From NCBI GenBank assembly GCA_015039365.1, contig WION01000014.1, positions 1 to 64,000 of the forward strand: a stretch of DNA of 64,000 bases, in the 5' to 3' direction. The notes beneath the pieces are model-generated. The model saw only the letters and a list, made by a program, of their open reading frames with translations. It searched no databases and was not told the origin of the DNA. The translations under genes and the position numbers were made by a program. Positions 11,805 to 17,392 of this stretch are shown here, in pieces (the first letter of the stretch is position 1; every line of letters begins with the position of its first letter). Source of the stretch: Amanita rubescens (lineage: Eukaryota > Basidiomycota > Agaricomycetes > Agaricales > Amanitaceae).

Positions 11805-14800
11805 ATGTCAGACAGTGAAGTTGAATTCCCACCAAGTATGTCAAAATTTGCGCCTTGGCATTGTTGAACTTTTTCACTGACGTTATCAAATACGTTATAC
11901 AGACGAGGAACAGGTTGCATTGCTCAGGGAGCGATACAGGTGTCCTCACTTCCGTATCCTTGTCATTGGAAGGGCCAATGCAGGCAAAACGACTATTCTT
12001 GAGAAGGTTTGTCGTGTGGCAAGGGGAACAATCCCCATCATATATGACAAGGAGGGTTAGTCAAACCAGATTTCTCGCACTGTTTAATATTGAGCATCTA
12101 TCAGGCAAACCACTGCAACCTACTTTGACACATTTAATACCATCAATTGAAGTGAGTTGAATGGTGCATATTGGCATATAAGTGTGCTTGTTCACATCTC
12201 ACAATGTTAGAGAGGCATACATGATATTGAGCACCAGATTACATACAAAGGCAGCAACTTCATCTTTCATGACTCTCAGGGCTTTGAATCTGGTGCAACT
12301 GATGAGTTGAATGTTGCTTGGGGATTCATTGACAAGAAATCTGCTGAATCAGAGCTGAGAAACCAGTTGCATGCAATCTGGTATCTTGGGTTATTATTAT
12401 TATCTTTTATAACCAGCTCACCAAATATCTCATAGGTACTGTATCCCCATGGACAGTCCTCGTCCACTTCTGCATACAGAACTCCAGTTCTTTCAAAAAG
12501 GAACAGGAAAAGGTTAGTGTTGAAGCTATTTTCTAGTGTATTGATATTTGGTTGGCATTGCAAGTTACTGCTTCACCTTTTTTACTGCTCTGCTGTGCAT
12601 TAATCACACATACATATTAACCAAATACTGACATCTTCACAGTTCCTTTGGTGGTAGTATTTACCAAATTTGATGGTCAAATAGTCAATGAGTATGTCAA
12701 CATGAAGGATGCAGAGAATTATGAAGATAAGTGGGACTTAGCAAGGGTGAAAGCTGATGACAGTTTTCAGAGGATTTATCTTCCCAAAGTCTTGGATACT
12801 GAATATCCTCCCAAAGCATTTGTGCGATTGGCAGGTGAAAATTGTTAACCTTTCTTGCTTAAACAAACTTAGACATGATGATTTTTCACAGATATGGATT
12901 TGGATGAGAATGACTGTCCTGAATTGACTGAGCAGACTGCTGGTGCACTTGATGATGACATCATTCAACAGCTGTTCATCTCAACACAGATGAATAACCT
13001 TGATCTTTGTGTCAAAACTGCCCTTCAGTGAGGACTGTACTTCTATATAATGCTGCTGCAAATGCTGACTGTTCTTAGACATACCCTGTCTTCTGCATGT
13101 CGATATGACACATGGATAAAGCAGACTCCTAGAATTCTCAACAAGTTTCCACATTACTGGGTACAATGATATTTTCTAAAAGTTTTGACATGGATGTGGA
13201 AAACTAAACCGAGGATGCAATAGATTGACAGAGAAGTATGTCTCTTTCATATTAGAAGGGAACTAAAAATGATAAATGTAATAGGATGTGAGCACACAAA
13301 CATACTTTGATGCTCAAGTTCTTTAACCATTGCCCTGATGAGCAGGCTGTAAGTAACACATAATACATTGATTATTTTGCTGAGCCATGGTCCTATTTTA
13401 ACAGCAAGATGAAATAAATGTGAGCAACGTAAACATTCTGTGGTACATGCATTAATATCTTGCATATGTATTAGTGGGTAAATGATGTCAAAGTGGTTGC
13501 AACTTCACTAGATCTGATTTTGTAACCAACAGTTTGTGCGTGATGCATCATTTTACTGCTGGGTTATCTGATCCTAGTCTTACTTAACAGGAAGTAAGTG
13601 ACATTAATCACATTCCTGACAGCATCCTCATCATATTTATTATATGGCCAATAGGAGGCGAGTAGTGCTTCCCTATGGGTAAATTCAAACTCATCTTTTG
13701 AACCATACATATATACAGGCAGTGAGTAGTACTGCACTATTTTATGCCCCACAGTTTCACTTCATCTGAAACTAGAAAGTGAGTAACACACATTTCCACC
13801 AGCCTCATCACCTATCATATGGCCAACAGCAAGTCTGTAACCTAGTGCTTTGTTCCATTAGAAGAGCTCATTAAATGTTGCCCATGATGAACAGGATGTG
13901 GGTGACATTCAAGTTGTCATTCTTTCTGTCTGTACATCTAATTCTATGATAATAGGCAGTAAGTGGCATAACCCATCACTTGTCCTTGATGACCATATTA
14001 CATGTCATCCCATGAATAGGATGTTAGTGGTATTTATTTTGTCCCAGTTAGAGATCTTATGGTCAAAAGGATGTAAGTAGCACTGCACTTCTTGCATCAG
14101 AAAGACTTGGTCATGGATTATTGCATGACTTGCAGGAAGTGAGTAACATGTTATATTGTCAATTCATCTGCAGGAAGCTGATTTGCTCCCAATTTCCTGT
14201 AGAGAGTAGGCAGTTCTACAAAATCTTTTTCTAGAGTATTTGATACTAACATCACCTACAGGATGTGAGTAGCACTCTTGCATAAAGTAAAGTTTGATCA
14301 CACCCACCCATGACCAATGGCAGTTTGTGAGAATTCTGCAATTTTGTTCTAGGTATTCTGATCACCCCTCTTCCTGTGTCTCCAGTTTGTTAGTCCCATA
14401 GTATTATTCCCTGACAGTCTCAGCAAGTTAACACTTTATTTCAAATAGGCAGTGAGTGGAGCTACATCATATATTCCCATGCACCAGATATTAAATGCCA
14501 TTGTAGGAAGTGAGTAATATGCACATTGCATATCATCAAGATCTAACCTATTGTCAACAGGGGGTGAGGGATTTCTTGTTTTGTTTGCTAACCAATGCTA
14601 ATTTATTGTGGTCAACACTGAACAGACAGTGAGTGACACTCCTTCTCCTCCAATATACATAATCTGATTGCATATGACACATGATCGACAGCATGTGAGT
14701 GACAACAGTGGCTTGTCTGTTGCAAATGAATTGATATCATATCCTATTCACAGTGGGTGAGTAACAATAATCTTTTATTTTACAGCTATGTCATAGTCAC

Positions 14801-17392
14801 AATTTCACAGCATGTAAGTTATGACCATTTATTTCGGTCATGCTCATCCATGATCAATAGAATGTGAGAAATACTGCAAGTTTTCTTGTAAATCCTCTGA
14901 TCCATATCATGTGCAACAGATTGTAAGTGATACTTCAACTCATCATGAAACTTCATGGCTCACTATACACAGTCAGTGAGTGAAGCTACAAATTATACAA
15001 GCTAGCCAGGCTGCACATCATTTTCATGACAAACAGAATGTAAGCTTTTATCCCATTTATTCTCTGAGGTTGGCTCATCCATCTCAATCTACTTACCTAA
15101 CAGAATGTGAGCATACATGCTTTTTAGTGACAGTTCCACCTTATCCTGTGATAAATAGATAGTGTGTGACATTGCTTAGTCTTGTTAAGCAGTCCATCTG
15201 ATTATCACATGGGCAACAGAAAGTAATGACATTATCTCAGGCTTTCCTGCTAAGCAGATTAATCTCATCATGAGCAGTTTGTAGGTAACAATACTTTTTG
15301 ACCCAGGCAATTTCATCCCCATTAAACAGGATGTGAGTTTTAACTGCCTTATTTTTTGAAAAATCCTTATCACAACAAACAGAAATATGAAGTGAGTTAA
15401 AACCAGGAATACTTTTGCTGTCTCATCACACAATCAATAGAATGTAAGTAAACAGTTCCAAATTTTGCCCACATACTTCTTACATTCAACCATTGACCCA
15501 TAGGATGTAAGTGACACTGGGTATTCTGCTGCCAGAAAGTCTTAATGGATATCTTATGACTTATAGCCTGTAAGTGACATTCTACTCCTCCAGGAGCTCT
15601 CATTATATCATATAATGATGCCAACAGGGAGTGAGCATTATTTTCTGCTTCTTGAGCCTATTATGTATAATAAATCACATACACAACAGTTTGTAAGTGA
15701 TTTCTCTTGCAGGGTGATTTTTTCACATCTCTTCCACTATTGAACAGAGAGTGAGAGCACTGTACATTTTTCCTGGAAGTAAATCTCATGTATCTGGTCA
15801 TACAACTGACAGGGAGTTAGTAATGTTTCATGATTTTTCAAAGGGAGACTTATCAAAGTCATATCTATCTATCTATCTATCAATAGGGAGTAAGTTGACA
15901 TGTTTTCCTGAGAAGGCTGCAATCTCATCACAAATCTTCTTACAAACAACAGGGGGTGGGTGACATACTATTTGTGTTTATTAAATAAGTTTCATCCATT
16001 TTGGCTTATGACCATCAGTCAGTGAGTGATATTATGCTTTAATCTATGGTGACATATTAATTACATCTCATGTCTTAAAATGTCAGAATGTGAGTGACAG
16101 AAATGCAAGCTGAAGCAGAATTTTCATTGTATGACCATCAGGAAGTGAGTGTCACTTGATTTTTGGTAGTGACATTATTTCTCATGTGTGCAATATTAAT
16201 AAATAGGATGTGAGTAACATTGTAACAGTTTTCTCAAGCTATTTTCACAACTCATACCTTGGTCAAAGCAAGTGAGTTATGTTTGCCCTTATGTCTGTTG
16301 CTTGTCTAATGGTGGACAGTTTGTGAGTAAGAGCACACAATTTAAGCTGATTGATTTTATTCCATGACCAACAGTTTGTGAGTGGCTCACATGATATTGC
16401 TGGGGAGATTTTGTCTCATGACCAACAGTTTGTGAGTAACCCTACACATGTTCTACTAGGTAACTTATGCAATCTTGCACAATGAACAGGGAGTGAGTTA
16501 CATTGTGAATTGATGTCTGCTTTGGCAACTCTCATCAACTGTCATCTCATGATGAATAGGAAGTAAGTGATTATGTGCACTTTCCTGTCTGAGAGTTGTC
16601 TGATTTAAGGACCAACAGCAAGTAAGTGACATAAAACATTTCTTCTTAGTCTCATTTCATTTCATCTGATGAACAACAGAGAGTCAGTAAATTTGCACTC
16701 TTATCAGTATAAAATCCTATCAGAACTCATCCCATGAACAGGATGTGAGCAAGACCCCTTTCTCTGATTAATGCATCCTTCTTATGTAAATTTAACAGAA
16801 AGTGAGACCATCAGCTTTGTACTAGTATTTTATACTGCTGATATTATCATAAATAGATTGTAAGAAATGATGCCTTTGCAATATTCCTTTCTGATGGCTT
16901 TCCCTATTACTTACCTCTCTAGGTAAGTATTGGCAGTTCAAGGTATAGAAAATTTCATGCTAATTTGTATGCAGTTTGTATGTTTGATGTACATGGGATA
17001 TTTTGCTCTTGCTCATGGATAGTCTGTATTTTTCTCCATGTTTGGAGGGAAAAAAACAACAAAATTTTCACCAAAGGTAAGAGGTGCTTATGTCTGTGGA
17101 GTACAAATGATAGTAACATAGACAGCCTTCAACCTGCCAAATCATAGTTGGTAATATAACTGATTCAATTTATATTTTCTTTGGTTAACTCTATGCAGCA
17201 ATGATTATCATTTGCAAGCTGTCATTCTGGATAAATAAGCCATTCAAATATTCAATCATTGAGGCTTTAGACCAATTCAAGAGCCAAGGATATGAGAAGA
17301 AGCTGAAGACTAGCATTACTTCCCTGTCCCTGCCCAAAGATGGTGATGAATTGCTTAAATTCCTGTATGATCTGATTAAGGACAAGTTCTGA
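11805..17392 (+). CDS. P-loop GTPase with a single-codon microexon linker
   Basis: Exon 1 (11805-11835) reads MSDSEVEFPP. Exons 2-8 (11903-12055, 12105-12151, 12211-12380, 12436-12512, 12643-12834, 12892-13027, 13079-13160) give a G domain with P-loop GRANAGKTT, a G3-like HDSQGFESG and a TKFD G4 motif. These eight exons sum to 888 nt, an exact multiple of 3. A chain of microexons (13224-16977) follows, then an exon at 17033-17093 with FSMFGGKKTTKFSPK, and a final exon 17199-17392 with a hydrophobic stretch (IIICKLSFW) and a helical tail ending LIKDKF. The predicted total is about 452 aa. The family resembles expanded Agaricomycete GTPases of unknown role. The last junctions are less certain: donor 17093/17094 keeps frame, while the stronger donor at 17087 would not. 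The gene body is almost free of CG. Confidence 0.75.
15862..15881 (+). repeat. (TATC)5 microsatellite in an array intron
   Basis: Five perfect TATC units lie just upstream of the acceptor of the GGA microexon at 15887. The host intron (15816-15886) is 71 nt, the longest in the chain, so repeat growth probably explains its length. Confidence 0.9.
16921..16928 (+). other. zero-length exon / recursive splice site
   Basis: The tract TTACCTCTCTAG is followed directly by GTAAGT, so an acceptor abuts a strong donor with no exon between. The preceding intron (16860-16922) is 63 nt and the following one (16923-16974) is 52 nt with a TGCTAAT branch-like site. Both sizes fit the array. This is the form of a ratchet (recursive) splice point. 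An alternative reading with a 6-nt TTCAAG exon at 16936-16941 also keeps frame, but would need a 13-nt intron. Confidence 0.6.

Follow-up and report, generated by a model that had tools for sequence, protein, structure and literature searches.

A gene on the forward strand of Amanita rubescens contig WION01000014.1 (assembly GCA_015039365.1) appears to be built largely of exons that are a single codon long. In the window, the stretch of 64,000 nucleotides (nt) from position 1 of this contig that was analyzed, our final model of the gene runs from 11805 to 17392 and has 73 exons, 59 of which are exactly 3 nt. An earlier note made from the DNA alone had proposed a chain of 59 single-codon exons here, and the final model bears out this number, with all 59 in phase 0. 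We think it very likely that this gene and the GTPase-like family to which it belongs contain a linker of about 70 residues that is encoded mostly at one codon per exon and is spliced intron by intron, and whose codon cassettes are reshuffled by recombination within introns. The linker is predicted to lie between the G domain and the C-terminal part of the protein.

The array comprises 62 exons of 3-15 nt (59 of 3 nt and one each of 12, 15 and 9 nt). All are in phase 0, and together they encode 71 residues. It begins with a 12-nt exon, IDRE (13224-13235), and its 3-nt exons span 13285 to 16977. The body of the array (13285-16859) consists of 58 single-codon exons together with a 15-nt exon, QDEIN (13405-13419), and a 9-nt exon, KYE (15383-15391), at a spacing of about 60 base pairs (bp). 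The body ends with ATT (I, 16857-16859), and the final 3-nt exon is TTT (F, 16975-16977). The introns of the array are 45-115 nt long (median 58). Over the whole gene there are 71 GT donors and a single GC donor (at 13658, gcgagt, following the GAG exon at 13655-13657), and all 72 acceptors are AG. Most of the information in the array introns is located at the donor and the acceptor; we looked for a fixed branch-point distance in these introns and found no clean peak. The arrangement differs from that of stwintrons, in which one intron lies inside a splice element of another: each array intron has a donor and an acceptor of its own, and successive introns are separated by 3 nt.

Three further exons follow the array: a 54-nt exon encoding SVFFSMFGGKKTTKFSPK (17023-17076), a 25-nt exon encoding PSTCQIIV plus 1 nt (17126-17150), and the last exon (17199-17392), which begins out of phase with 2 nt of a split codon and continues with MIIICKLSFWINKPF...LIKDKF and a stop. 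The earlier note had recognized the C-terminal exon and overlooked the 54-nt and 25-nt exons ahead of it. Its candidate for a 60th microexon, TTG at 17148, is the end of the 25-nt exon and was rejected by both the reading frame and a homologous protein (P0098, below). Likewise, its statement that every exon is a multiple of 3 holds from 13224 to 17076 and fails beyond, and its claim that the upstream frame closes was correct (eight exons, 888 nt).

The array was detected statistically and by splice-chain decoding. There are 49 strict YAG-NNN-GTRNG sites on the plus strand between 13161 and 17198, compared to 0-2 on either strand in the remaining 4-kb bins of the window and a mean of 0.84 (maximum 5) in 300 first-order Markov shuffles of the block. 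A first splice-chain programme, with weights taken from the strict sites and run prior to any comparison with homologous sequences, recovered all but one of the 59 three-nt exons; the 58 lie between 13285 and 16859, and none of them was later altered. The first exon of this chain and its last few were corrected by hand after comparison with P0098, to 13224-13235, 16975-16977 and 17126-17150. Because a second decoder had the finished window model as its training set, the scores that it gives on the window are in part circular; those on paralogues are free of this circularity. On the block this decoder gave a score of 870 with 60 exons; 60 shuffles reached no more than 26.9 and no more than 8 exons.

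Evidence that the codons are joined comes from protein sequences. One of these, P0098, has 295 residues and comes from a single contig, which is 1,107 nt long and bears the source tag 'jgi'. From VVVFTKFD to the end of the spliced model, all 295 of its residues align without a gap and with 9 differences (286 identical, 97%). Over the array, 70 of 71 residues are identical, the sole difference being F358Y, so that the array body corresponds one-to-one except at that position. IDRE, QDEIN, KYE, the F of 16975-16977 and the 54-nt and 25-nt exons are all represented in P0098, and there is no residue between the I of 16857-16859 and that F. The genomic span of the matching stretch is about 4.7 kb. 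A contig of 1,107 nt is too short to hold the introns, and we therefore take P0098, which comes from a close relative or from another strain, as an intronless sequence; by this comparison it joins all the codons of the array in their genomic order. Model residues 290-457, used as a query, returned P0098 as the sole match (E 7e-105, 220 candidates). The codon string that the earlier note expected in a spliced product is thus found at the protein level, and P0098 does not have the alternative form in which the block is retained whole or removed as one intron.

We compared three pairs of protein and genomic sequences: P0098 with the window, P0024 with paralogous locus L055, and P0003 with locus L056. 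P0024, from a 1,486-nt contig, aligned with L055 over 66 residues without a gap, covering 50 single-codon exons, with 42 identical. P0003 was identical at 28 of the 51 single-codon exons of L056, with gaps, and its tail resembles read-through of the L056 intron that follows a GAA exon (EVCDIAQFSECQSHLN compared to EVCEMPQFSEIPTHPN), so it probably retains one array intron. No skipped exon was found in the two ungapped alignments (P0098/window and P0024/L055), which include 108 single-codon exons. These results bear on the possibility that cells include differing subsets of codons, so that one gene yields many linkers. Nearly all exons in intact arrays are multiples of 3, so any subset would keep the frame. 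The lack of skipping argues against such combinatorial use, as does the one failure seen, which looks like intron retention, and we consider it unlikely.

Other relatives were less informative. P0020 and P0021 match L055 with gaps, and P0009, P0066 and P0070 gave no useful match to the arrays compared. P0012, from a 1,446-nt contig, matches locus L014 over the first ~27 array residues. From about residue 320 onward, G, L, R, Q, P and H abound in its linker, a composition similar to that of the codons in the young arrays described below, and P0012 may be the transcript of an array with near-identical introns. A search with P0012 residues 285-386 for further young-array sequences returned only P0012 itself.

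The same layout is widespread in a family of genes in this genome. The last-exon peptide of the window gene had 150 scored places in the genome, counting both haplotypes (219 candidates); it was identical at two of them, one on C46, the contig of the window, and one on C124, and at each of the remaining 148 its identity was 46-70%. We sampled 70 loci, consisting of the best 30 matches and 40 of the 120 lower ones; obvious duplicates were avoided and alleles remain. At least ten 3-nt exons were present in 66 of the 70, alleles included, and the layout is thus not confined to the one gene in which the earlier note had placed it. The four exceptions were L025 (which has a transposon-like insertion), L046 (near a contig end), L030 (four 3-nt exons) and L058 (one). 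The more fully covered arrays have 46-70 three-nt exons (53 in L012, 70 in L013, 46 in L014, 47 in L016, 50 in L055 and 51 in L056), and the whole genome would have some thousands of such exons, a number that we estimated and did not count. A motif, W-F-x-x-A-x-x-x-A-D-x-E-R, is shared with paralogues and is encoded at one residue per exon; in the window it starts with TGG (W, 13475-13477) and TTT (F, 13533-13535). Its residues were assigned to single exons in the window, in L055, in L056 (apart from the W, which the decoder misplaced) and, with the motif in a changed form, in L014; in L012 and L051 it was read as a string only. The 15-nt exon QDEIN has counterparts of comparable position and sequence in L055 (KHNEVD) and L056 (ASSNEIK).

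Several side observations concern the state of individual copies and of the assembly. L025 (contig C439) is an allele of L024 (C31) in which an insertion that resembles a transposon and has inverted ends replaces or interrupts the array region. The insertion looks Tc1/mariner-like; downstream of it L025 is 98.8% identical to the L024 copy. L055 looks degraded, with a 4-nt exon and a frame-shifted last exon, and stop codons are present in the array or neighboring exons of L066, L072, L083 and L051. A 4-nt exon at position 632 of L057, and spacings of 66 at C254 and C599, lie amid near-identical 62-nt introns and represent either true frame breaks or assembly errors. An apparent ATGAGT donor stands in place of GTGAGT in L013 (3099 and 4930) and L019 (942). 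Two contigs (C650:4-65 and C88:4-65) start within a copy of a 62-nt intron sequence (the 62-mer), so breaks in the assembly may fall inside arrays, and the arrays may be longer than they seem here.

The single codons are under selection against stops. For this count we used 58 loci, having removed by hand alleles, duplicates and L058, L067, L071, L072, L080 and L095, and excluded units with a donor or acceptor score below 4. There were no stops among the 1,055 good-site single codons. T was never found at the first codon position before AA, AG or GA (0/473), compared to 149/555 before the ten other suffixes compared (Fisher p 4e-45). With nothing removed, there were 2 TGA in 1,129 codons from the 70 loci, one of them with a poor donor. 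The third base of the 1,055 codons was A in 544, T in 425, G in 74 and C in 12 (A or T in 969). Third-base C+G is 41% in the N-terminal codons of the window gene, and the difference indicates that codons ending in C or G are avoided beside the donor. An AG at the end of a codon would provide a second acceptor; this leaves the avoidance of C unexplained.

These findings, together with the protein alignments, bear on two explanations in which the array is not translated. The block could be a non-coding tandem repeat derived from introns, removed as one long intron or not transcribed. The units are indeed related to each other and to the 62-mer, and the annotated protein (P0001) ends just past exon 8. 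Against this, codon strings are present in P0098 and P0024, a stop-forming T is absent from all 473 positions across the family, and the information in the window introns is mostly at splice signals. P0098, P0024 and the absence of stops rule out such a satellite or single long intron, and we leave it next to no probability. Alternatively, P0098, P0024 and similar sequences could come from intronless genomic genes, ancestral or reverse-transcribed, with the array copies as their untranslated relatives; the contig DNA and library type of P0098 and P0024 are not visible, which leaves room for this. P0098 is, however, 97% identical to the window gene, the JGI relatives listed are spread over many contigs with lengths of 0.9-2.1 kb, P0003 seems to hold one array intron, and stops are avoided in the arrays of 58 loci. 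A retrocopy would itself be a record of a spliced mRNA. We regard an origin of these proteins from intronless genes as very improbable.

Near its 3' end the window array contains what we call a zero-nt exon. The 115-nt intron 16860-16974 includes CTCTAG/GTAAGT, with the acceptor extending to 16922 and the donor starting at 16923. At the matching place, YAG/GTRRG was present in 34 of the 70 loci and absent from 23, with 13 set aside as near-copies; some allele pairs, such as L022/L023, remain among the 34. The chance of this sequence in a shuffled 80-nt window was 0.003. In 30 of the 34 loci a 3-nt exon pattern follows 49-57 nt on. The first distance is above 100 nt at L028, L060, L073, L083 and L090, a value probably due to loss of the last exon by the decoder. 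Of the 34 loci, 26 have ATT as the last single codon ahead of the zero-nt exon, and 17 have TGT as the final 3-nt exon. In recursive splicing, an AG/GT ratchet point recreates a donor after the first splice. We read the AG/GT site as a conserved ratchet point of this kind, at which removal of one intron would recreate the donor of the next.

In some arrays, which we call young, the introns are nearly identical and the codons are not. About 30 consecutive introns of L014 are alike, and its codons read TSLPLLQQQEFPQPHPIIFFFVPPQLLQQRK. Introns letter-identical to the 62-mer make up 16 of 17 in L062, 15 of 17 in L094 and 11 of 17 in L057. In L062 there was 1 mismatch in 1,054 intron positions, compared to 21 in 51 positions against the codon consensus; in L094 the corresponding numbers were 1 in 992 and 13 in 48. 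For pairs of units with flanks at least 95% identical (n = 640, non-independent), the codon was shared in 19%, compared to 96% expected under equal change of codons and introns. The 3' tails of L057, L062 and L094 are 99.0-99.7% identical, and their codon strings align no better than shuffled strings. L062 and L094 were considered as alleles and rejected: downstream they are 99% identical in a stretch of 227 bp and 97% identical in one of 420 bp, with no further match in 2.1 kb on each side, and they are probably dispersed duplicates.

The window array is an old one with introns that are still 62-mer-like. Its introns compared to the 62-mer gave a mean z of 1.75, with 43% above 2 (n = 61), and the ten other introns of the gene gave about 0.2. 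Construction of this array by duplication of neighboring units found weak support: adjacent introns gave 0.151, compared to 0.126 overall and 0.087 when shuffled, and there were 8 adjacent identical residues compared to 4.06 expected (p 0.05). Such an excess was not significant in L012, L013, L016, L055 and L056 and was clear in L014 (10 compared to 3.59, p 0.001). L013 has internal copies 27 and 29 units apart.

Direct evidence that whole codons are added or removed by change between introns comes from one locus. Contigs C73 and C737 each contain three family members that agree in order and strand, with two pairs near-identical, and they look like collinear haplotype contigs. L041 and L031, on these haplotypes, differ by a 124-nt insertion or deletion corresponding to two whole units, with codons GTA and AAT. 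The 8-bp repeat TCTGAACA is found at both breakpoints, within introns, and splice sites and frame are intact in both forms. The arrays are thus tandem repeats of 65-bp units, intron plus codon, with a copy number that varies between alleles.

Two other explanations address how such arrays arise. In one, a mobile intron of ~62 nt inserted between pre-existing codons, perhaps with 3-bp target duplications, and the identical introns reflect a recent burst of these introners. Letter-identical introns in several paralogues and runs of the same codon (GGGG, RRR) would fit, and duplications of 3-9 bp are reported for introners (PMC9860276). With regard to target duplications, neighboring codons in the arrays are often unlike. 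Yet the 62-mer, found on many contigs with a typical spacing of 65 bp among the matches listed, gave no listed match pointing to another gene; these matches lie on contigs near family matches and are nearly all tandem (40 of 158 candidates scored, part of 410 matches). Among them the spread of an introner finds no support. The near-identical paralogues L057, L062 and L094, with codon strings that align no better than shuffled ones, show no shared pre-existing coding stretch. We judge this origin improbable, if not extremely so.

In the other, mutation by substitution, insertion and deletion is raised at the 3-nt exon relative to the intron. The low sharing of codons between units with near-identical flanks favors this, and so does the 4-nt exon amid near-identical introns in L057. 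The predominance of A and T at the third base and the absence of stops are, on the other hand, as expected from selection or a splicing constraint, and no enzyme or mark that would act in this way is known. We find codon-targeted change doubtful and favor concerted evolution of the introns with diversifying selection on the codons.

The mechanism that we favor is as follows. Each short intron (~58 nt, with its own donor and acceptor) would be recognized as a unit, by intron definition. The footprints of U1 and U2 make exon definition across 3 nt sterically impossible. An exon of 3 nt leaves no room for U1 and U2 to be bound to both of the introns beside it, which would hence be removed in sequence or alternately. 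The earlier note had proposed that intron definition or sequential splicing must apply; the one probable retained intron of P0003 and the lack of skipping fit this. A failure of splicing would yield intron retention, not exon skipping. Units of intron plus codon would multiply and vanish through recombination within introns, which leaves the reading frame intact. Concerted evolution would homogenize the introns, and the diversity of the codons would be maintained, with diversifying selection on the linker as the most likely cause. The linker itself may be a fast-changing segment for recognition or interaction on a GTPase switch; recognition is suggested by the attachment of a variable linker to a G domain in a family that is large, dispersed and partly broken. 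We hold as tentative, at somewhat less than an even chance, the broader proposal of codon-cassette diversification. By this proposal, recombination or copying between introns inserts, deletes and swaps single amino acids in frame, codon change far outpaces intron change, and the ordinary spliceosome, with the zero-nt ratchet, assembles each new linker, perhaps for self/non-self or partner recognition.

Several points weigh against these readings. The status of P0098, P0024 and P0003 as transcripts comes from the size of contig and protein, as the contig DNA and the reads were not seen, and splicing is shown at the protein level only. Past the first ~27 array residues, the linker of P0012 matches no array compared. 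TGA occurs inside a 3-nt exon in 2 of the 70 loci, one of them at good sites (L072), and 4-nt exons occur in L057 and L055; several family copies may therefore be broken. The zero-nt exon is lacking from 23 loci, and its use in two steps is a prediction. If diversifying selection acted alone, codons would have to change faster than introns by a margin far beyond the usual, which is hard to accept without gene conversion or mutational bias, and the window array has just weak traces of neighbor duplication.

The N-terminal GTPase-like part of the window gene lies at 11805-13160 (plus strand) and has 296 codons in its eight exons (11805-11835, 11903-12055, 12105-12151, 12211-12380, 12436-12512, 12643-12834, 12892-13027 and 13079-13160). 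It equals, to residue 296, the 298-residue annotated A. rubescens protein F5887DRAFT_960972 (P0001), whose annotation stops two residues past exon 8. Gene prediction missed the window array, as the annotated protein ends just ahead of it. The protein starts with MSDSEVEFPP, and its N-terminal part has the letters GRANAGKT and DSQG, which we take to be the P-loop and DSQG motifs. PF01926 (MMR_HSR1) scored 21.3 bits against P0001, compared to the curated cut-off of 21.9, and did not match P0020, P0024, P0070 or P0098. A profile search against solved structures gave only weak matches (GTPase Der, EngA and Septin-11). The annotations of P0104, P0118 and P0119 (from Hebeloma and Mycena) end at or soon past FPN.W or FPH.W, which is the start of the Amanita array, and arrays may exist in these relatives too.

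If read correctly, the arrays point to a spliceosome that goes codon by codon through ~60 consecutive introns of one message; in the sequences compared, no exon was skipped. Because 3 nt are too few for exon definition, such arrays lend themselves to tests of intron definition, of the order of splicing and of ratcheting. They also suggest a route to protein diversity, in which one-codon exons are set in near-identical introns and recombination stays in frame. In the open-access full-text literature, which omits most subscription papers, we found neither single-codon-exon arrays nor a paper on Amanita and microexons. We found no gene structure equivalent to this family, in which exons of one codon form arrays and, in some of these, variable codons lie between near-identical introns.

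Like microexon genes, the Amanita gene has many very small internal exons, which are seen in the mature product at the protein level (P0098 and P0024). Aphid bicycle and megacycle genes also have many very small internal exons of a single phase in a fast-changing family, with over 100 microexons in one gene (PMC9168663). The internal exons of bicycle genes are almost all in phase 2, whereas those of the Amanita array are all in phase 0 and 59 are one codon; the available passages mention no near-identical introns, unlike the young Amanita arrays (PMC9168663). Exons of 1-3 nt are reported in Arabidopsis APC11 (1 nt, PMC4674806), Fusarium CYP621A (1 nt, PMC12940212), Drosophila homothorax (3 bp, PMC7392893) and lipS of a Dactylellina (two of 3 nt, PMC5639578). 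These are spliced, or inferred to be, as in Amanita, but they are reported as one or two per gene, and not as hypervariable, family-wide arrays of dozens. Recursive splicing is presented for large animal introns (PMC5126111, PMC2773006), whereas the adjacent AG/GT of the zero-nt exon, conserved in 34 loci and lacking in 23, lies in a fungal segment of ~105-135 nt. Introners are near-identical short introns in many copies, as in Amanita, but insert in many genes, whereas the Amanita copies listed sit in the arrays of one family (PMC9860276, PMC4457414).

Larger units that repeat an exon together with its intron offer a last comparison. The repeated exons of Schistosoma SmPoMuc mucins, spider silk and Cryptococcus CNN00420 are far larger than one codon. 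Exon and intron repeats are described for SmPoMuc and silk, with silk introns said to be more homogenized than the exons (PMC2576457), and identical introns for CNN00420 (PMC2395259). There, as in Amanita, exon-plus-intron repeats are attributed to recombination or repeat expansion. In the Amanita arrays, by contrast, the repeated exon is one codon, and it is also the variable part.

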